From Eubacteriales bacterium (GTDB taxonomy: Bacteria; Bacillota; Clostridia; Peptostreptococcales; Anaerovoracaceae), in assembly GCA_028702415.1 (NCBI GenBank), contig JAQVOT010000011.1, positions 1 to 13,381 on the forward strand: a DNA stretch of 13,381 bases, read 5' to 3'. Made by a program: the position numbers and the translations under genes. How positions within the stretch are numbered: position 1 is the stretch's first letter; each line of letters begins with the position of its first letter. This document shows, piece by piece, positions 5,092 through 13,057 of the stretch. The notes below the pieces were generated by a model. That model searched no databases and was not told where the DNA came from. It saw only the letters and a program-made list of their open reading frames with translations.

Positions 5092-6042
5092 CTAAATCTG
5101 CAAACACTTTCTGAGGTGCCAGAATGTTATATAATCCTTGATCTTATCGGCGGCAGCATTATCCGAAAGGATGGTGCTGCTGTTTTTTTCTGCATTTGCT
5201 TCAGCATATTGCAAGGCGTAACGCTCCCTGTCTTCGGTAGGGGTCATGTGCCAGAGGGCTTTGAAGGCGCTGTAGAAGTATTTAGGGTCAGAAAAGCCGC
5301 ATTCAAAGGAAATCTCAGAAATGGGTTTATCCGTCTTCAGAAGCAGAGTTTCGGCGTTGTAGCAGCGTATGTAGTTCACCATGTTGGAAAAGCTTGAAAA
5401 GACGGTTTTGCTGATGAACTGTGAGAAGTAGTTCCTGTCCATGTGCTCACGATTGGCCAGCTGGGATACCGTGATCTTCTTCTGGTAATTTTTATTAATG
5501 TATTCGAGAATGCGAGTAAATCTGTCATATAGATCTCGGTTCATGTATTCGTCCTGGTTTTCGTAGTTGAACCAGTTGAAGTATTGCAAAAGCAGATCTG
5601 CCAGGTTTCTCACAACCATGTTGCAGTCCGTTTCACCTGAATTGCCGGTGAAATAAATATACGATAGAGCAAGAATTATATCCTTGACCTTATCCATGGC
5701 GGGTTTCTGGTAGGGGAAGCAGTGATTGCTTTCACATGCATAATAAACGTAGTTCAGCTCTTCCCACTCAGGCAGTTTTGACAGATCCAGATGGAATATG
5801 AGAGTCAGGTTTTCTTCGGAACCGTTCAGGTAGTGTATATCATAAAAATCTATGGAGTGAATCTGCCCCGGAGTAAGAAGGTAATCCTGGTCAGCTGCAA
5901 TAAGGTGTATTGAACCTTTGAGACAGTAGACAAGTTCAAGTTCTGTGGTATGTCTGTGGGGAAGCTGTTTGCTGATTTTGCATAACTGCGCTTCAAAGGG
6001 CATATCTTTTTTGTATTTGATCTTTTTTTCGATAATATCCAT
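5092..6042 (-). CDS. AraC-family transcriptional regulator (second paralog)
   Basis: A 316-residue regulator read on the minus strand. The cupin-like sensor domain (about 1-165) begins with PHRHTTELELVYCLKGS, a typical AraC ligand-pocket strand. The DNA-binding domain (about 178-275) contains ISEISFECGFSDPKYFYSAFK and MTPTEDRERY. The sequence TCCTCC at 6051-6056, read on the minus strand as GGAGGA, lies 8 nt before the ATG at 6042-6040. The protein is paralogous to the regulator at 107-1036 over the whole length, including the C-terminal tail. It is divergent from the saccharopine-dehydrogenase-like gene and convergent with the amidohydrolase, so it may activate or repress one or both. Its last 30 or so codons carry, on the opposite strand, the terminator of the neighbouring operon. 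Confidence 0.93.
   Translation of the reverse strand: MDIIEKKIKYKKDMPFEAQLCKISKQLPHRHTTELELVYCLKGSIHLIAADQDYLLTPGQIHSIDFYDIHYLNGSEENLTLIFHLDLSKLPEWEELNYVYYACESNHCFPYQKPAMDKVKDIILALSYIYFTGNSGETDCNMVVRNLADLLLQYFNWFNYENQDEYMNRDLYDRFTRILEYINKNYQKKITVSQLANREHMDRNYFSQFISKTVFSSFSNMVNYIRCYNAETLLLKTDKPISEISFECGFSDPKYFYSAFKALWHMTPTEDRERYALQYAEANAEKNSSTILSDNAAADKIKDYITFWHLRKCLQI
5151..5189 (+). terminator. Plus-strand terminator embedded in the convergent AraC gene
   Basis: On the plus strand, arms 5151-5164 and 5169-5182 pair over 14 bp, with three G-U wobbles (two internal, one near the base). They close on a GAAA tetraloop and are followed at once by seven T (5183-5189). This is a well-formed intrinsic terminator about 95 nt after the amidohydrolase stop codon. 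It lies wholly inside the 3' coding region of the minus-strand regulator, in its C-terminal tail and outside the HTH. It probably ends the permease-GyrI-amidohydrolase transcript. Confidence 0.82.
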
Positions 6043-6190: not shown

Positions 6191-7501
6191 ATGGGTAAAA
6201 AAATACTGGTATTGGGAACCGGCGCACAGGGAACAACCGTAGCCAAAAGACTGCAGTTGGAACCCAATGTGGATAAGATTATTCTGGCGGATTATGATGA
6301 AGCTGCTGTTAAAGAGCTGGCCGGAGAACTGGATAAGGCAGAAGCCTTCTTCTGCGATGCTTCAAGGAAGGAAAATATCACAGCTCTAATCAAGGGCTGC
6401 GATCTCGTAGTAAATGCGCTGCCGCTGGCCTTTGGCAAGAACGTGATCGATGCGGCACTTGAAGAAAAATGCAACTACCAGGACTTCGCAGCTCCGGAGG
6501 GATTTGAAGATACATGGGAAAAATGCATGTACAGACTCCTTGGAGATTACAATGAAAAATTCAGGGAAGCAGGAATTCTGGGAATTATGGGTACAGGTTC
6601 AGCTCCCGGAACAATGTGCGTTGTAGCCAGAGACACCATGAAGGATATCGATGAGTGTGAGACGATTTTCATGAATGTGTATGAGGGTGTTGAGGCCAGG
6701 AGATTCCAGCCTTACTGGTGGTCACCTGTAACCGCCCTCAATGACATGGATGATCTGGCTGTAGCATGGGTTGAAGGAAAGATGGTCAACACCAAGCCCT
6801 TCTCACTTCCAATTGAAAGAACCTATGATTACGTGGGATACCCCGTAAGATTTGTGGAGCACGCTCACGATGAACCTTTCTATGTTGGACTAAGATCTGA
6901 GGAATTGTTCAAGGGCTGCAGGAATGCGTACTTCAAATACGGCGGAGTAGGAATCGAATTCGCAGAACCTCTGGCAAGAGCCGGCCTTCTCAAGAGGGAT
7001 CCGGTGGAACTGCAGGGTCAGATGGTAAACACTCATGAAATGATTCTGAAGTTCCTGCCACAGCCTCCAAGGTTTGCCCACCAGGTGGAAGAAATAATAG
7101 AAGAGGGTCTGGTTTCAGATACAGGTGCTTTCGTGGTAGAAGCTCTGGGCAAGAAGGATGGCAAGCCGGTAAGGGTCGAATCCCATCTGTTCGCACCCGG
7201 ATTTGTGGAATCCTATGAAAAATTCGGAGTAACCGGCGAACAGTATCTGACAGGACAGGGCGGTTTCATGTTCACCAAGCTGTTTGTTAATGATGAACTG
7301 GAAGGTCAGAAGGGCTTCATTTCATCAGCTGAGCTTTCACCTGAAGCAAACGACAAGTATCTTGAATATGCCAGAGAACTTGAAATTACCATCGAAAGAA
7401 AAATAGTATGGGACGATCCGTACTTCGAAAATCAGCCTCCTGCTAAGGAATATGTTGAATGGTGGGAGCAGCCTACGATCACTCCTGTTGAGGCCCTGTA
7501 A
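6191..7501 (+). CDS. Saccharopine dehydrogenase-like NAD(P)-dependent oxidoreductase
   Basis: A 436-residue protein with an N-terminal Rossmann domain. The dinucleotide motif is GTGAQG (residues 9-14), followed by an acidic residue at the end of strand 2 (ILADYD) and by the family pattern DLVVNALP (71-78). GIMGTGSAPGTMCVVA (about 131-146) matches the domain crossover seen in saccharopine dehydrogenase and carboxynorspermidine dehydrogenase relatives. AAGGAG (6175-6180) lies 10 nt before the ATG. Relatives reductively join an amino group to a keto acid or aldehyde, or run the reverse reaction. Substrate cannot be assigned. It is transcribed away from the adjacent AraC gene and is the likeliest target of that regulator. 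No convincing terminator follows it, so transcripts may read into pyrC 75 nt downstream. Confidence 0.85.
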   Translation: MGKKILVLGTGAQGTTVAKRLQLEPNVDKIILADYDEAAVKELAGELDKAEAFFCDASRKENITALIKGCDLVVNALPLAFGKNVIDAALEEKCNYQDFAAPEGFEDTWEKCMYRLLGDYNEKFREAGILGIMGTGSAPGTMCVVARDTMKDIDECETIFMNVYEGVEARRFQPYWWSPVTALNDMDDLAVAWVEGKMVNTKPFSLPIERTYDYVGYPVRFVEHAHDEPFYVGLRSEELFKGCRNAYFKYGGVGIEFAEPLARAGLLKRDPVELQGQMVNTHEMILKFLPQPPRFAHQVEEIIEEGLVSDTGAFVVEALGKKDGKPVRVESHLFAPGFVESYEKFGVTGEQYLTGQGGFMFTKLFVNDELEGQKGFISSAELSPEANDKYLEYARELEITIERKIVWDDPYFENQPPAKEYVEWWEQPTITPVEAL

Positions 7502-7524
7502 AGGGTGCTATTTTCAAAAAGTGA

Positions 7525-7553
7525 TTGACATAGCATCTCCTATGTGACATAAT
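7525..7553 (+). promoter_or_regulatory. Promoter of the pyr operon
   Basis: A perfect TTGACA (7525-7530), a 17-nt spacer and CATAAT (7548-7553) make a near-consensus housekeeping promoter. Transcription should start near 7560, leaving a leader of only about 17 nt before the pyrC ATG at 7577. There is no room for a PyrR-type attenuator or a leader peptide upstream of pyrC. Any control must therefore act on the DNA around the promoter or within the coding sequence. Confidence 0.82.
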
Positions 7554-7572
7554 ATCGCAGATACATAGGAGA
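7536..7572. repeat. 10-bp inverted repeat bracketing the pyr -10 box and overlapping the pyrC ribosome binding site
   Basis: TCTCCTATGT (7536-7545) in the promoter spacer is an exact inverted copy of ACATAGGAGA (7563-7572). The arm centres are 27 bp apart. The right arm contains the pyrC ribosome binding site AGGAG (7567-7571). The left arm lies before the expected start of transcription, so RNA from the pyr promoter cannot form the hairpin. RNA entering from the upstream gene could, and would hide the ribosome binding site. As DNA, it could be an operator for a dimeric repressor. Confidence 0.65.
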
Positions 7573-7576
7573 AAAG

Positions 7577-8722
7577 ATGCTAGACAGAATAAAAATATTA
7601 GACAAATGCACATTTTTACCCGGCTTCACAGATGTTCACGTACATCTGAGAGAGCCGGGTTTTTTGTATAAGGAAACGATTGCAACAGGGACGGAGGCTG
7701 CTGCTGCAGGTGGATTTACAAATATATGCTCCATGCCGAATGTTAAACCATGTCCGGATAGTTACGATAATCTTCGTATACAGCTTGAGGCCATAGAAGA
7801 AACCGCCAGGATAAGGGTCTACCCCTACGGTGCAATAACCAAGGATCAGAAAGGCAGGGAACTGGCGGAGCTGGAGTCCATTGCAGGCAAGGTTATAGCC
7901 TTTACCGATGATGGCTTCGGGATAATGTCCGATGATCTGATGAGAGAAGCGATGGTCCGTGCCAAGGCATTGGGGAAAATGATCGTGGCCCACTGTGAAG
8001 ATGAGAGATATCCCAGGAATTCCAATGAATCCGAGTATAAGCAGCTGGAACGTGATCTGAATCTCGTCAGGCAGACGGGATGTTCCTATCACGCATGTCA
8101 TATTTCCACAAAGGAATCTGTTCAGCTCATAAGGCGGGCAAAGGCGGAGGGCCTGGATGTTAGCTGCGAAACAGCACCCCACTATCTGCTCCTCAGCAGG
8201 GCAGATGTTGAAGATGCGGTATCAGGACATAATGGAAGGACAGGAAGCCTTCCTGCGGGCTGGTTCAAGATGAATCCCCCCATCAAGTCGGAAGAGGACA
8301 GAATGATTTTGCTTGAGGCGGCGGTTGACGGAACCGTAGATATGATAGCCACGGATCACGCTCCTCATAGTGCAGAGGAAAAAAATCTGGACTTTGACAG
8401 ATGTGCCTACGGGATCGTGGGACTGGAAACCGCATTTCCGGTGCTCTATACCGGGCTGGTGCGAAAGGATATCATAAGTCTTGATAGACTGGTGGAAATG
8501 ATGAGCACAGCACCGGCAGAAAGATTTGGAATCAAGAGTACAGAGGATTACAGCCTCTGGGATCTGGAAACAGAATGCACAGTGGACAGCGGTGCATTCA
8601 AAAGCAAAGGCAGCGCCACCCCCTTTAATGGATGGAAGGTGTACGGCAGATGCATCAAAACAGTAATGGACGGAAAGGAGGTTTACAGTTTTGAAGAACA
8701 GAAAAGCAGAGATAATAAGTAA
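7577..8722 (+). CDS. pyrC: Dihydroorotase
   Basis: Third step of UMP synthesis: reversible cyclisation of carbamoyl aspartate to dihydroorotate in the cytoplasm. The metal ligands of class I dihydroorotases are visible: H21 and H23 in DVHVHLREPG, D111 in FTDDG, H139 in VAHCED, H175 in CHIST, H201 in TAPHYL and D260 in ATDHAPH. At 381 residues it is shorter than the usual 420-430, because the N-terminal strands that precede the HxH motif are cut to about 14 residues. AGGAG (7567-7571) is 5 nt before the ATG, and no earlier start is plausible given the promoter. It is the first gene of the pyr operon. A terminator-like hairpin lies within codons 14-30, and pyrK overlaps its last 32 bases. Confidence 0.95.
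   Translation: MLDRIKILDKCTFLPGFTDVHVHLREPGFLYKETIATGTEAAAAGGFTNICSMPNVKPCPDSYDNLRIQLEAIEETARIRVYPYGAITKDQKGRELAELESIAGKVIAFTDDGFGIMSDDLMREAMVRAKALGKMIVAHCEDERYPRNSNESEYKQLERDLNLVRQTGCSYHACHISTKESVQLIRRAKAEGLDVSCETAPHYLLLSRADVEDAVSGHNGRTGSLPAGWFKMNPPIKSEEDRMILLEAAVDGTVDMIATDHAPHSAEEKNLDFDRCAYGIVGLETAFPVLYTGLVRKDIISLDRLVEMMSTAPAERFGIKSTEDYSLWDLETECTVDSGAFKSKGSATPFNGWKVYGRCIKTVMDGKEVYSFEEQKSRDNK
7618..7665 (+). terminator. Terminator-like hairpin inside pyrC codons 14-30 (putative attenuator)
   Basis: The left arm 7618-7635 pairs with the right arm 7642-7660. The lower stem ACCCGGCT/AGCCGGGT is 8 bp. A short region with one bulge and one mismatch follows, then a perfect 7-bp upper stem (CAGATGT/ACATCTG) closed by a 6-nt loop. 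Six T (7660-7665) follow directly. A five-T tract (7613-7617) sits just before the left arm. The element starts about 58 nt after the expected transcription start and encodes the metal-binding HxH region. A translating ribosome would melt it. That makes coupled transcription-translation attenuation possible; this is inference from structure alone. Confidence 0.6.
8674..8681 (+). promoter_or_regulatory. Ribosome binding site that fixes the pyrK TTG start
   Basis: AAAGGAGG lies inside the end of pyrC, 9 nt before the TTG at 8691. The next in-frame ATG is at codon 21 of the PyrK frame, inside conserved sequence and without such a site. The strong site therefore decides for the unusual TTG start. 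Confidence 0.8.
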
Positions 8723-9431
8723 CAGACAGATTGCTGAAAATACATATGAAATGATATTGAGTCACGATGGAACAGAATTGAAGCCGGGTCAATTTATAAA
8801 TATCAAGCTGGAGGGTTTTTTCCTCAGAAGACCGATTTCAATCTGCGACTGGGATGAAAAAACAATTACGATAATCTACAAGACCGTGGGCAGGGGAACG
8901 GAGGCGATGAAGCGGTATGTTTCCGGAGGGTCCATTGACATTCTGCTTCCTCTGGGGAACGGATATGATGTCAGTGACGAAAGAATAGGGCAAAAGCCTA
9001 TCGTTGTCGGTGGTGGAGCAGGAGTTCCGCCTATGTTCGGCCTTTGCAGAGAACTTGTGGCCAGAGGCTCAAAACCTTTGGTGGTTTTAGGGTTTCGGAG
9101 TTCAAAGGAGATGTTCTATATTGAAAAATTCAGAGAGCTTGGCCTTGAGGTGGCAGTTGCTACGGAAGATGGCAGTTATGGTGTTAAAGGATTCGTAACG
9201 GATGTACTATCGGATTCTGAATGCACCTCTTTTTTTACCTGCGGTCCGGAGGGCATGCTGAAGGCCATGGATTCAACCATGGGCAGGGGCATAAGCGGAT
9301 GGTTCAGCTTTGAAGAGAGGATGGGCTGCGGGTTTGGCGCCTGCATGGGGTGCTCATGTGAAACCCGCTACGGAAGCAAGAGAATCTGCAAGGAGGGACC
9401 GGTTCTGGAGAGGGAGGAAATCATATGGTAG
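8691..9431 (+). CDS. pyrK: Dihydroorotate dehydrogenase B, electron-transfer subunit
   Basis: This is the iron-sulfur flavoprotein partner of PyrD. It passes electrons from the PyrD FMN through a 2Fe-2S cluster and FAD to NAD+. The 246 residues match the family length. RRPIS (46-50) is the FAD-binding motif of ferredoxin-reductase-like domains, GGGAGVPPM (107-115) is the nucleotide-binding turn, and FTCGPEGML (182-190) is the NAD-site motif. The cluster ligands are C213, C218, C221 and C233. An extra C223 sits beside them. The start is TTG, set by AAAGGAGG at 8674-8681. The gene overlaps pyrC by 32 bases and pyrD by 7, which suggests translational coupling and matched subunit amounts. Confidence 0.95.
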   Translation: MKNRKAEIISNRQIAENTYEMILSHDGTELKPGQFINIKLEGFFLRRPISICDWDEKTITIIYKTVGRGTEAMKRYVSGGSIDILLPLGNGYDVSDERIGQKPIVVGGGAGVPPMFGLCRELVARGSKPLVVLGFRSSKEMFYIEKFRELGLEVAVATEDGSYGVKGFVTDVLSDSECTSFFTCGPEGMLKAMDSTMGRGISGWFSFEERMGCGFGACMGCSCETRYGSKRICKEGPVLEREEIIW

Positions 9432-10375
9432 GAAGTGATAGAACGAATATGAAAGTTGAACTTTGTGGAATTACTCTGGATAATCCCATAATTCCCGCAA
9501 GCGGAACCTTCGGGTTCGGCAGAGAATTCGCAGAACTGTATGATATTAACATTCTCGGGACATTCTCATTCAAGGGAACAACAGGGAAAAATAGATTCGG
9601 AAATCCCACACCGAGAATTGCGGAATGTACAGAGGGAATGATAAATTCCGTGGGACTGGAGAATCCGGGTGTTGATGGGGTGATAAATGAAGAACTGCCT
9701 GAAATTTCCAAGATGTTCAACAAGTCTGTAATGGCAAATGTCAGCGGATTCAGCCTGGAGGAATATGTTGAGGTGGCCGGCAGACTTGCCCTTCAGAAGC
9801 AGGTCGGCTGGATTGAGTTGAACATATCCTGTCCCAATGTGCACAGGGGAGGCATGGCCTTCGGTACAGATCCGAAGGAGGCGGCCAGGGTGACGGGAGC
9901 AGTAAAAAAAGCCCTGGAAGCCCAGAGTTCAGATGGGGGAAACAAACCCCTGATCGTGAAGCTTTCGCCCAATGTTACAGATATAAGTGAAATAGCAGTT
10001 GCCTGTGAGATTGCAGGGGCGGACGGACTGACACTAATCAATACGGTACAGGGCATGAGAATAGATCTGAAAACGGGAAGACCTGTTATTGCCAATAAGA
10101 TCGGAGGTTTCTCAGGACCGGCCATACTGCCCATAGCCCTGGGAATGGTTTACCGGACCTACGAGAAAGTTAAGATTCCCATAGTAGGCTGCGGTGGGGT
10201 AAGCTGCCCCGAAGATGTGCTGGAAATGATGATGGCCGGAGCTACCGGGGTACAGGTTGGAGCAGCAAACCTTGTGAACCCCTGGATATGTCAGGAAATA
10301 ATAGAAGCTCTGCCCTCTCAAATGAAGAAATACGGTATTGAAAATTTAAGAGATATTATCGGAGGTGCGCACTGA
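9425..10375 (+). CDS. pyrD: Dihydroorotate dehydrogenase B (NAD+), catalytic subunit
   Basis: Fourth step of UMP synthesis: oxidation of dihydroorotate to orotate. The 316-residue FMN barrel is of class 1B, because the catalytic base in NISCPNVHRGG is cysteine (C136) and the PyrK partner is adjacent. K50 in FSFKGTT, INSVGLENPGV (73-83), KLSPN (179-183) and GCGGV (255-259) are the FMN- and substrate-contact motifs. AGGGAGG (9411-9417) is 7 nt before the ATG at 9425. A later ATG at 9449 has no ribosome binding site. The gene overlaps pyrK by 7 bases and shares one base with pyrF (TGATG). Confidence 0.96.
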   Translation: MVGSDRTNMKVELCGITLDNPIIPASGTFGFGREFAELYDINILGTFSFKGTTGKNRFGNPTPRIAECTEGMINSVGLENPGVDGVINEELPEISKMFNKSVMANVSGFSLEEYVEVAGRLALQKQVGWIELNISCPNVHRGGMAFGTDPKEAARVTGAVKKALEAQSSDGGNKPLIVKLSPNVTDISEIAVACEIAGADGLTLINTVQGMRIDLKTGRPVIANKIGGFSGPAILPIALGMVYRTYEKVKIPIVGCGGVSCPEDVLEMMMAGATGVQVGAANLVNPWICQEIIEALPSQMKKYGIENLRDIIGGAH

Positions 10376-11055
10376 TGCCAAAGGATGTAATCATAGCATG
10401 TGACTTCTCATCAGAGGATGAAACAATGAACTTTCTGGAAAAGTTCGGAGATGAGAGACCCTATGTGAAAATAGGAATGGAACTTTTCTATGGAACCGGA
10501 CCTGATATGGTGAGAAAGCTTAAGGCCAGAGGGCATAGTGTCTTTCTGGATCTGAAGCTCCACGACATACCAAACACCGTGGGCAGGGCAATGGCGGTTA
10601 TCAGCACCCTGGGAGTGGATATGTGCAATGTGCATGCTGCCGGAGCAAAGGCGATGATGTCAGCTGCGGCGGCGGAGGCCAAGGGTCTGGTAATAGGCGT
10701 AACTCAGCTCACATCAACCTCAGAGAAGGTCATGCGGGAGGAGATACTCATTGAAAAGCCCCTGAAGGAAACGGTCATTCAGTATGCGCTGAACTGCAAA
10801 GAAGCGGGACTTAAGGGTGTTGTATGTTCACCTCTGGAAGCGGAGGAAGTGCACAGGGCCTGCGGATATGATTTTCTCACGGTGACACCGGGAATAAGAC
10901 TTGAGGGAGACGCCAAAGGAGACCAGAAAAGAGTTACGACCCCGGCCATGGCAAGAGAGCTCGGCTCGGATTACATAGTTGTGGGCAGAAGCATAACCGC
11001 TGCCGCGGATCCACTGGCAGCCTATGAAAGATGCAGAAAGGAGTTTTTAGGATGA
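10375..11055 (+). CDS. pyrF: Orotidine 5'-phosphate decarboxylase
   Basis: Last step of UMP synthesis: decarboxylation of OMP. The protein is a 226-residue single-domain barrel, slightly shorter than the Bacillus and E. coli enzymes (about 239-245). The catalytic array is visible as D59, K61 and D64 in FLDLKLHDIPNT. The phosphate-binding end reads VTPGIR (about residue 170) and VVGRSIT (near residue 200). GGAGGTG (10361-10367) lies 7 nt before the ATG, inside the end of pyrD. The ATG shares one base with the pyrD stop codon, and the pyrF stop overlaps the pyrE start as ATGA. Both overlaps suggest translational coupling. Confidence 0.96.
   Translation: MPKDVIIACDFSSEDETMNFLEKFGDERPYVKIGMELFYGTGPDMVRKLKARGHSVFLDLKLHDIPNTVGRAMAVISTLGVDMCNVHAAGAKAMMSAAAAEAKGLVIGVTQLTSTSEKVMREEILIEKPLKETVIQYALNCKEAGLKGVVCSPLEAEEVHRACGYDFLTVTPGIRLEGDAKGDQKRVTTPAMARELGSDYIVVGRSITAAADPLAAYERCRKEFLG
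11037..11043 (+). promoter_or_regulatory. Ribosome binding site that fixes the pyrE start
   Basis: AAAGGAG lies 8 nt before the ATG at 11052. An in-frame ATG at 11031 comes before this site and would add seven residues not expected in the family, so 11052 is the start. Confidence 0.8.
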
Positions 11056-11666
11056 AGAAGAAAATAGCAGGATATCTGCTTGACATCGGGGCGGTTTTTC
11101 TAAGGCCGGAGGAGCCATTCACATGGGCCAGCGGAATTAAAAGTCCGATTTACTGTGACAACAGGCTGATTCTTACAGCCCCTGAGGTAAGAACAGAGGT
11201 TGAGCAGGCCATTGCGGATACTGTCAGGAGAGAGTTCCCTGAGGCTCAGGCCCTGTTCGGAACCAGCACAGCGGGGATCGCTCATGCGGCAATAGCGGCA
11301 CAGATCATGAACCTGCCCATGGGATATGTCAGATCAAAAGGTAAAGATCATGGCCGAAATAACAGAATAGAAGGAAGACTTCCGGAAGGGCAGAAGGTTG
11401 TGGTGATAGAAGACCTGATATCAACAGCCGGCAGCGCGGTGGAAGTCGTTGATGCTTTGAAAGATGCGGGGGCGGAGGTGCTGGGAATAGTGAGCATCTT
11501 CACATATGGAATGGAGAAGGGCAAGAGACGTCTAGAGGAGGCAGCTGTGAGGAACGTGAGCCTCACGGATTTTGATACTGCGATTCAGGTTGCCTACGAA
11601 AGAGGTGACCTGGATAAAAAGGGTATAGATGAGTTGAAGAAGTTTATCGAAGAAAACGGGAGGTAA
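11052..11666 (+). CDS. pyrE: Orotate phosphoribosyltransferase
   Basis: Fifth step of UMP synthesis: transfer of phosphoribose from PRPP to orotate. At 204 residues it has the usual length. The type I PRTase PRPP loop is [14 protein letters not shown] (116-129), with the acidic pair E120-D121. The flexible catalytic loop [15 protein letters not shown] (94-108) contains K96, K98 and H100. The N terminus [26 protein letters not shown] (13-38) is the orotate-binding region. The start overlaps the pyrF stop (ATGA), with its ribosome binding site inside pyrF. The stop is 1 nt before the pyrB ATG. Confidence 0.96.
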
Positions 11667-11667
11667 A

Positions 11668-12594
11668 ATGAGACATTTAATAGAGATTATGGACCTGTCA
11701 GTTGATGAAATTGACGAAATTATAGAAGTTGCCAATGATATTATCGCTGATCCTGAAAAATATCGTGAGAAATGCAAAGGCATGAAACTGGCCACCCTGT
11801 TCTTTGAGCCTTCAACAAGAACCAGACTGAGTTTTGAAGCGGCCATGTACGAGCTAGGTGGAAATGTGCTGGGATTTTCTGAGGCTCAGAGTTCATCTGC
11901 GGCCAAGGGAGAGAGCGTGTCGGATACAATAAGAACAGTTGGAGCATATGCCGATATCATAGCCATGAGACACCCCAAGGAAGGGGCCCCGGTGGTGGCA
12001 AGCTACAAATCGGATGTTCCCATAATAAATGCAGGAGATGGGGGTCACAATCGACCTACCCAGACTCTTACAGATCTGCTCACCATAAGCAGAGAAAAAG
12101 GGAGGCTCGATAACATGACGGTGGGGCTTTGCGGTGACCTGAAATTCGGCAGAACGGTGCATTCCCTCATAACCGCAATGTCCAGATATAAAAACGTGAA
12201 GTTCATTCTTATTTCACCTGAAGAGCTGTGCATTCCGGAGTATCTCAAGGATGAGGTTCTTCACAGGAACAATCTCGAGTATCTGGAAACCAAAGATCTC
12301 GAGGCTGCCATGCCTGAACTGGACATTCTGTACATGACAAGGGTTCAAAAAGAAAGATTCTTCAACGAACAGGACTACATGAGATTAAAGGACAGCTATA
12401 TTCTCACTCTGGACAAGCTGGATAATGCAAAGGCAGACCTGTCGATACTTCATCCCTTGCCAAGGGTAAATGAAATATCCGTAACCATCGATGAGGACCC
12501 GAGAGCGAAATATTTCCAGCAGGTCAGAAACGGCAAGTATATAAGGATGGCGCTGATACTCAAACTGCTGGCCGCTGCCGGGGTTCAGTCATGA
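11668..12594 (+). CDS. pyrB: Aspartate carbamoyltransferase, catalytic subunit
   Basis: Second step of UMP synthesis: carbamoyl phosphate plus L-aspartate gives carbamoyl aspartate. The 308 residues match the family. The carbamoyl phosphate site is S49-T-R-T-R53 in [12 protein letters not shown]80 belongs to the mobile loop shared between subunits. [14 protein letters not shown] (123-136) and HPLPRVNEI (262-270) are the other active-site motifs, and DPRAKYFQQ (277-285) lies near the C terminus. GGGAGG (11658-11663) is only 4 nt before the ATG and is followed by the pyrE stop, so coupling to pyrE translation is likely. With pyrI next, the enzyme should be the allosteric B-class holoenzyme of catalytic trimers and regulatory dimers. 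Confidence 0.96.
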
Positions 12595-12641
12595 GGCGAA
12601 TAATAACAGCGAGAAGGATTAAAGGGAGGATATTATCGTGA
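12591..12641 (+). CDS. Possible 16-codon coupling ORF between pyrB and pyrI
   Basis: An ATG overlapping the pyrB stop (ATGA, 12591-12594) opens a frame of 16 codons. It ends in TGA at 12639-12641, overlapping the pyrI GTG start as GTGA. The peptide would be [16 protein letters not shown], which is very basic. There is no clear ribosome binding site of its own, so it could only be translated by re-initiating ribosomes. It fills the only sizeable gap in the operon. It may be chance, or a way to carry ribosomes to pyrI. Confidence 0.2.
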
Positions 12642-13057
12642 TAATAGGAAAGATTGAGAACGGACTGGTCCTTGATCATATCAAAGCGGGTCAGGGAATG
12701 AAATTATACGGGATTCTGGGACTGGATAAACTGGACTGTCAGGTAGCCCTTATTAAGAATGCTGACAGCAAGAAGTACGGTAAGAAGGACATCATCAAAA
12801 TTGATAAACTTATAGATATAGATCTGAATGCTATAGGCTTTGTTGACCCCCATATAACCGTCAATGAAATCAAAGGAGGTCAGCTCGTAAAAAGGACACA
12901 TATCGAGAAACCCGAAAGAATCGAAGGCTTTGTCAAGTGCAAGAATCCCAGATGCATCACCACTGTTGAGCAGGAGCTCCCCCACAGATTTGTTCTTACG
13001 GACAGAGAAAAAGGGATTTACAGATGCATTTACTGTGAAAGTAAGCTGGAATACTAA
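12638..13057 (+). CDS. pyrI: Aspartate carbamoyltransferase, regulatory subunit
   Basis: The nucleotide-binding regulatory chain of aspartate carbamoyltransferase, 139 residues, typical of clostridial PyrI and shorter than the 153 of E. coli. The allosteric domain (about 1-95) contains GLVLDHI and GKKDIIKI, the effector-site elements. The zinc domain has C101, C106, C130 and C133 in a Cx4C...Cx2C pattern that holds the contact with PyrB. The start is GTG, supported by GGGAGG (12624-12629) 8 nt upstream. It lies 43 nt after pyrB and presumably gives CTP/ATP control of the pathway's first committed enzyme. No terminator is visible after it. Confidence 0.95.
   Translation: MIIGKIENGLVLDHIKAGQGMKLYGILGLDKLDCQVALIKNADSKKYGKKDIIKIDKLIDIDLNAIGFVDPHITVNEIKGGQLVKRTHIEKPERIEGFVKCKNPRCITTVEQELPHRFVLTDREKGIYRCIYCESKLEY

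Follow-up and report, generated by a model that had tools for sequence, protein, structure and literature searches.

The 5′ coding part of pyrC in an Eubacteriales bacterium of the Anaerovoracaceae appears to act as a pyrBI-like, UTP-sensitive and ribosome-gated attenuator of the whole pyr operon, a reading of the sequence to which a probability of roughly 0.68 is attached. Its components carry different weights, which are judgements and not computed values. That a terminator inside pyrC is under selection seems, from comparison with relatives, close to certain; that this terminator is an attenuator of the operon is very probable, that the attenuator is gated by translation is probable, and that UTP is sensed via U-rich codons is likely, if a degree less so. 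In Escherichia coli pyrBI, such control is exerted through a separate leader peptide, with pausing at low UTP and translation-coupled control of the terminator. Here, the N-terminus of the enzyme would do the leader peptide's job.

The window, the whole 13,381-nt stretch that was analysed, belongs to contig JAQVOT010000011.1 (GCA_028702415.1). ORF reading and a profile scan place in it an operon with the gene order pyrC-pyrK-pyrD-pyrF-pyrE-pyrB-pyrI, all on the (+) strand. The first gene, pyrC (7577–8722), encodes dihydroorotase (TIGR00857 above cut-off, 340.9 bits) and is followed by a pyrK-like dihydroorotate dehydrogenase electron transfer subunit (8691–9431; best match NF000799 of NCBIfam, below its own cut-off), pyrD (9425–10375; NF005574), pyrF (10375–11055; NF001273), pyrE (11031–11666; TIGR00336), pyrB (11668–12594; TIGR00670) and pyrI (12638–13057; NF002063), the last five each above cut-off. 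Upstream on the same strand is a sigma-70-like promoter with 11/12 matches (7525–7553), read directly as TTGACA at 7525–7530, a 17-nt spacer and CATAAT at 7548–7553, with a TG before the −10 box. The Shine-Dalgarno sequence GGAG (7568–7571) and the pyrC ATG (7577–7579) follow, also by direct reading on the (+) strand. Judged from the −10 box alone, transcription would start near 7560, leaving a 17-nt leader ahead of the ATG. The predicted 5′ end (7560–7600) is unstructured, with a fold of −0.3 kcal/mol and no hairpin over the ribosome site. An inverted repeat, AGCATCTCCTATGT (7532–7545) and ACATAGGAGA...GATGCT (7563–7581), covers the pyrC −10 box, ribosome site and start codon; RNA of 7520–7600, which holds this repeat, folds at −17.3 kcal/mol, and the repeat could be an operator or could mask the ribosome site in read-through RNA.

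Within pyrC, again on the (+) strand, a T5 tract is read directly at 7613–7617 as a putative U-tract pause site, where most relatives have a longer U-rich N-terminal coding stretch. Behind it lies a terminator hairpin, identified by folding and conserved, whose 5′ arm (CCCGGCTTC plus CAGATGT) occupies 7619–7635 and whose 3′ arm (ACATCTG, GA and GCCGGG) occupies 7642–7659. A conserved T6 tract, read directly at 7660–7665 in codons 28–30, would supply the U-tail. The hairpin spans pyrC codons 14–28 (7619–7659) and folds at −24.4 kcal/mol, against a mean of −12.1 (sd 3.8) for 20,000 synonymous versions made with the window's own codon usage; 35 of the 20,000 are as stable, and none of these also holds the T run. 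The initial annotation had described the same promoter and short leader, had placed the T5 tract, hairpin and T6 tract within pyrC codons 13–30, and had proposed a comparison of the folding energy with codon-shuffled versions; its coordinates agree on reading, and the fold exceeds the shuffled controls. A simple terminator scan omits this hairpin because it demands an uninterrupted stem and a loop of at most 8 nt, whereas the stem has small bulges. No family reached its gathering score in an Rfam scan of the window, riboswitches and leaders included. Programmed frameshifting was dropped on reading, PyrC staying in frame and no spacer separating the T tract from the stem.

The same element recurs in close relatives. 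Protein searches yielded an alignment of 116 rows, the window included, made up of 36 PyrC sequences from the genus and the best 80 of 452 relatives in GTDB genomes; L009 and L032 are identical, leaving 115 distinct sequences. Within the genus, 36 of 49 genomes gave a PyrC-level match, and all 36 were read. A protein-level search found 7999 protein relatives of L036, and the peptide patterns listed in the GTDB-genome protein search fall outside the hairpin. A hairpin is present at the same codons in every one of the 116 rows, with folds of −15.6 to −25.6 and a mean of −21.1, compared with −13.0 after codon shuffling by each gene's own usage. A T run of at least 4 occurs in 115 rows, where 31.0 are expected from codon choice, and all 7 outer pairs form in 107 rows, where 15.8 are expected. 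The codons concerned are nearly fixed: the first Pro is CCC in 112/116 rows (33% elsewhere in these genes), the second Pro CCG in 115/116 (40%) and the last Phe TTT in 115/116 (43%). Peptide, pairing and T run are kept together, as the attenuator proposal had anticipated for related genomes. Taken row by row, the codon null is beaten at p ≤ 0.05 by only 89/116 rows and at p ≤ 0.01 by 43/116, since the peptide already favours pairing. The RNAalifold consensus is likewise weak (−3.35 kcal/mol) because the inner stem shifts register between rows.

Most stem positions are set by the protein, and covariation accordingly rests on two wobble pairs. For the Gly16:Glu26 pair, the 116 rows hold C-G in 51 cases, U-G in 43, U-A in 21, A-A in 1 and C-A in none, that is, GGC/GAG, GGT/GAG and GGT/GAA are used and GGC/GAA is not. 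The Fisher p of 9e-7 for this association assumes independent rows and is overstated, the rows being related. The Pro15:Pro27 pair is C-G in 138 of the 146 loci of the hairpin type defined below, swapped to G-C in 3 and mismatched in 5. The swaps, from CCC...CCG to CCG...CCC, are found in L080, L221 and L223, and L080 differs from L078 over 41 nt at exactly the two paired wobble sites. Among 82 diverse rows, the covariation score was reached by none of 500 shuffles and sliding the partner dropped pairing from 98% to at most 67%; in the same rows, neither the tally of pairs altered at both partners nor that of pair types rose above shuffles (127/500 each). Ordinary PyrCs carry many letter combinations at the equivalents of both pairs. 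The expectation that synonymous sites of the two arms would co-vary is thus borne out at the two pairs that are free to do so, with three double swaps.

PyrC sequences were sorted by the residue that follows the last PG-hydrophobic, with E, T or D marking the ordinary type and S, L, C, F, A or I the hairpin type. Hairpin-type PyrCs have a mean z of −2.31, and 144/146 have both stem and T run. In ordinary PyrCs, which have the same kind of motif, the mean z is −0.27, a T run occurs in 14/61 and a T run together with a stem of −15 or lower in 0/61. One of these 61, L222, is by its RNA-model score a decayed member of the hairpin kind; without it, the ordinary set has 0/60 with both, the same z of −0.27, 14 with a T run and 4 whose stem folds at −15 or below. 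The initial caveat that the protein motif by itself might drive the stem is contradicted by these 61 ordinary PyrCs and by the codon nulls. In hairpin-type members Phe is followed by S, L, C or F where E or T is usual, and the tail stays T-rich as a result. As a background measure, pyrC was recovered by the ORF picker in 130 of 144 hairpin loci, and 127 of these 130 ORFs match at the site, with 18 further terminator-like matches elsewhere within them and 18 matches in 410 other ORFs of the same loci.

A quick tree built from the residues after the motif (159 of 207 loci, many inner forks weak) unites the hairpin type as one group with support 100, in which 119/120 rows bear the feature; in the sole exception, L068, the T run is interrupted. 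An RNA model detects the element at 66 bits or more in 50 of 291 genomes of the same class, spread over 21 families, and reading all 50 gave 46 intact cases in 20 families and 4 that have lost stem or T run. More distant PyrCs are mostly without the feature, as 29 further loci from the phylum include 25 with the motif, of which 2 are hairpin-type and 23 ordinary. Since loci from L147 on were mostly collected via the RNA model, the hairpin-type share among loci is not a frequency, whereas the contrast between the groups holds. The hosts of the hairpin type form a large group of gut bacteria, most of them uncultured. Several ordinary PyrCs among L150–L176 show TTTTGAATATAA after a CCGGG-like motif, from which the T run may possibly have evolved. 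Decayed forms of the hairpin or T run were seen in L205, L222, L260, L266 and L267.

In the window pyrC opens the pyr operon and has a promoter of its own, and at most loci checked it stands ahead of other pyr genes. Of 140 hairpin-type loci, 43 have a promoter of similar strength no more than 260 nt from the hairpin, compared with 0/140 in the pyrC body and 1.2 expected from shuffled upstream DNA. At 50/116 loci pyrK is directly behind pyrC, and at 9 of 13 loci read the ORF after pyrC has a carB-like start, all three of those scanned being carB. Of 30 hairpin genomes checked, 27 have pyrB, and 24 of these carry it 4.1–8.4 kb behind pyrC, in the same orientation and on one contig; pyrB precedes pyrC in 1/116 rows.

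Ahead of the hairpin, the coding sequence of most relatives is rich in U. T makes up on average 40% of the 60 nt directly before the hairpin in the 116 rows, compared with 20% in the gene, and 107 rows reach or exceed the 95th percentile of their own gene. The window is among the nine rows under that mark: its hairpin is preceded by only 14 codons, and its T content is at the 69th percentile. At four-fold third positions of the hairpin type, T amounts to 0.51 before the hairpin (630/1243) against 0.23 in the body (4230/18191), while ordinary PyrCs have 0.32 before the motif site and 0.28 in the body, which argues that the U bias was chosen at the nucleotide level. C at four-fold sites is lower before the hairpin (0.19 vs 0.24), as is purine content compared with the gene (0.40 vs 0.56). 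In the 90/144 loci with a clear Shine-Dalgarno sequence, the median distance from start codon to hairpin is 40 codons. The best dihydroorotase profiles align to the window PyrC from residue 12–13, at profile positions 36–52, while in five hairpin-type relatives the full-length profile alignments begin between residues 4 and 39; the extent to which the usual N-terminus has been lost thus varies. The NusG pause motif TTNTTT was considered as a cause of the U-richness and rejected, being present within 60 nt in 62/142 hairpin loci against 57.3 in shuffled sequence. For the UTP sensitivity that had been proposed from the window, these relatives offer indirect backing in their U-rich codons, while the window's own tract is short and fits it less well.

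The proposed mechanism begins with steps that the sequence supports: an intrinsic terminator, a GC-rich hairpin and U run, is kept inside a translated region by selection on synonymous codons, and is preceded in most relatives by codons selected for U. When UTP is plentiful, RNA polymerase would pass the U-rich codons fast and outrun the first ribosome, so that the hairpin forms and transcription ends. The predicted stop would give a transcript of about 105 nt in the window, and of roughly 185–270 nt in those relatives whose promoter can be recognised. Under UTP shortage, polymerase would stall in the U-rich codons, allowing the first ribosome to close up and exclude the hairpin, and pyrC and the following genes would be transcribed. 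A stall at 7613–7617 in the window would leave about 40 nt past the ATG, by estimate roughly the room needed for one initiating ribosome behind polymerase.

Such a switch bears on how closely ribosomes follow polymerase in these hosts. The hairpin-clade hosts look like runaway transcribers by the placement of their terminators, which lie a median of 12 nt past stop codons (48 cases in 536 ORFs, from these loci alone); terminators a few nt after stop codons are a sign of runaway transcription in Bacillus subtilis, according to a review (PMC7858274). If this applies here, polymerase that meets no hindrance would run ahead of the first ribosome and terminate at the pyrC hairpin. In its fullest form, the proposal is that one Clostridia dihydroorotase clade has turned its N-terminus into a nucleotide sensor without any leader peptide, with U-written codons stalling polymerase at low UTP and DVHVHxREPG written as a terminator, the uncoupled state being OFF and UTP starvation restoring coupling for ON, intact in 20 families. 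The odds of this whole account are put only somewhat better than even.

PyrR, the protein required by the known pyr attenuator of Bacillota, was found above the NF003549 cut-off in 266/299 phylum genomes and in none of the 49 genomes of the genus, 18 of which have a completeness of 90% or more with contamination no higher than 5%. Within the class, PyrR is present in 19/50 hairpin genomes and 144/241 others (p = 0.007), and strict exclusion of PyrR by the hairpin is rejected by those same 19. Among the pyrR positions listed, which cover 17 hairpin genomes, that of G546 alone falls on the pyrC contig; as the assemblies are broken, pyrR in the others is only possibly distant from pyrC. The PyrR RNA element (RF00515) is absent from the window and from all 20 hairpin loci searched, two of which (L183 and L195) have less than 750 nt of upstream sequence. 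It occurs in 12/20 ordinary loci, equal to 11/18 genomes (p = 3e-5 against hairpin loci) as two genomes are included twice (L131/L165, L133/L159). The hairpin attenuator would therefore stand where a PyrR leader would be, and PyrR may persist elsewhere in the genome. That the window lacks a PyrR-type leader, as the initial annotation had remarked, agrees both with the Rfam scan and with the genus-wide absence of PyrR. PyrR is present in 4/5 decayed cases compared with 16/46 intact ones (p = 0.07), a difference only suggestive of hairpin decay where PyrR is present; no PyrR RNA element was seen near the decayed forms in the stretches examined. A ZMP/ZTP riboswitch lies near pyrC on the opposite strand in L194 (1896–1999).

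Several other explanations would keep the hairpin and change its role. The terminator could be real and translation-gated while responding to a signal other than UTP, such as ribosome availability, pyrC initiation, or the action of a small RNA or a protein on the leader. This is unlikely, even though the window's U-tract is weak (69th percentile) and the conserved part, hairpin and T run, requires no more than a trailing ribosome: ahead of the hairpin, codons are selected for U and not for C (T 0.51 vs 0.23; C 0.19 vs 0.24), the controlled operon makes UTP, and no second conserved block was visible by eye ahead of the hairpin in the upstream DNA of the 116 rows. Rho-dependent control, in which the pyrimidine-rich gene start loads Rho on untranslated RNA and the hairpin only assists, would suit the low purine content (0.40 vs 0.56) and the Rho protein found over cut-off in 38/49 genus genomes. 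Rho of B. subtilis targets pyrimidine-rich RNA, and genes of runaway species avoid pyrimidines and so escape it, as argued in a 2026 paper (PMC13323073). The pyrC start is pyrimidine-rich, the opposite of such genes, and Rho may therefore give some help. As the main explanation it is nonetheless quite improbable, since what has been conserved is an intrinsic terminator with its T run, C is lower and not higher before the hairpin, which rejects a C-rich Rho site, and no Rho was over cut-off in the window's own genome (about 90% complete).

An insulator against read-through from upstream genes, and not a regulator of the pyrC promoter, would agree with the co-directional gene that ends at 7501 in the window and with an inverted repeat that could mask the pyrC ribosome site in read-through RNA (−17.3). 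It becomes very doubtful given that the nearest upstream predicted ORF of at least 100 aa is on the opposite strand in 35/144 hairpin-type loci, and that promoters are directly upstream in 43/140. Equally doubtful is an effect of the hairpin on translation or mRNA stability, or the release of a free small RNA, with the T run incidental. Any 5′ structure can slow ribosomes, and a terminated leader could work in trans, but the T run is conserved like the stem (115/116) and the S, L, C or F after Phe keeps the tail T-rich. Coincidence imposed by the peptide PGFxDVHVHxREPGF and codon bias is scarcely credible; PG...EPG does permit CCNGG pairing, and the null forms 5.7 of the 7 outer pairs on average, yet the codon nulls, the ordinary PyrC controls and the double swaps all contradict it.

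The UTP-sensitive attenuator proposed here shares with E. coli pyrBI an intrinsic terminator before the operon's enzymes, a U-rich tract (in relatives; weak in the window) and the proposed coupling and UTP control. It differs in that no separate leader ORF is present, the terminator lies within the first structural gene, whose ORF continues through it, and the host belongs to the Bacillota. Attenuation by coupled transcription and translation, with pyrBI and pyrE as UTP-sensitive cases, is covered in PMC4491880. The nearest precedent is E. coli rph-pyrE (PMC2784333), in which a structural gene is likewise the translated leader and the position at which the ribosome stops relative to the hairpin bears on read-through. 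There, the hairpin occupies the 3′ end of rph and acts on the following gene, whereas the pyrC hairpin is in the first 30 codons (in the window) and would control the gene that contains it. The PyrR attenuator resembles the pyrC element in acting on pyr operons of the same phylum, but needs PyrR and an RNA site, which were found in 0/49 genus genomes and 0/20 hairpin loci, respectively. Start-site switching at E. coli pyrC, as outlined in PMC4491880, acts on ribosome binding and senses CTP; it too is nucleotide control without a repressor protein, as proposed for pyrC here, whose predicted 5′ end, in contrast, has no hairpin (7560–7600). No description of a terminator inside pyrC was found in the literature searched, from which subscription papers were largely absent.

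If the proposal is true, a ribosome-gated, UTP-sensing attenuator would operate in bacteria whose transcription may often outpace translation, and the local switching-on of coupling would become a directly testable question. The codons of a conserved enzyme motif would double as a terminator across one protein clade, where other Bacillota have a PyrR leader. Annotation and expression work would be misled, as synonymous recoding of pyrC should abolish regulation, and gut metatranscriptomes should contain short pyrC RNAs.

Elsewhere in the window, the gene upstream of the operon (6191–7501, in the same direction) encodes a saccharopine dehydrogenase-fold protein, with a match to carboxynorspermidine synthase that is weak and far under cut-off. 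Two AraC-type regulators (98–1036 and 5092–6042) flank an amino acid permease, a GyrI-like protein and an amidohydrolase.
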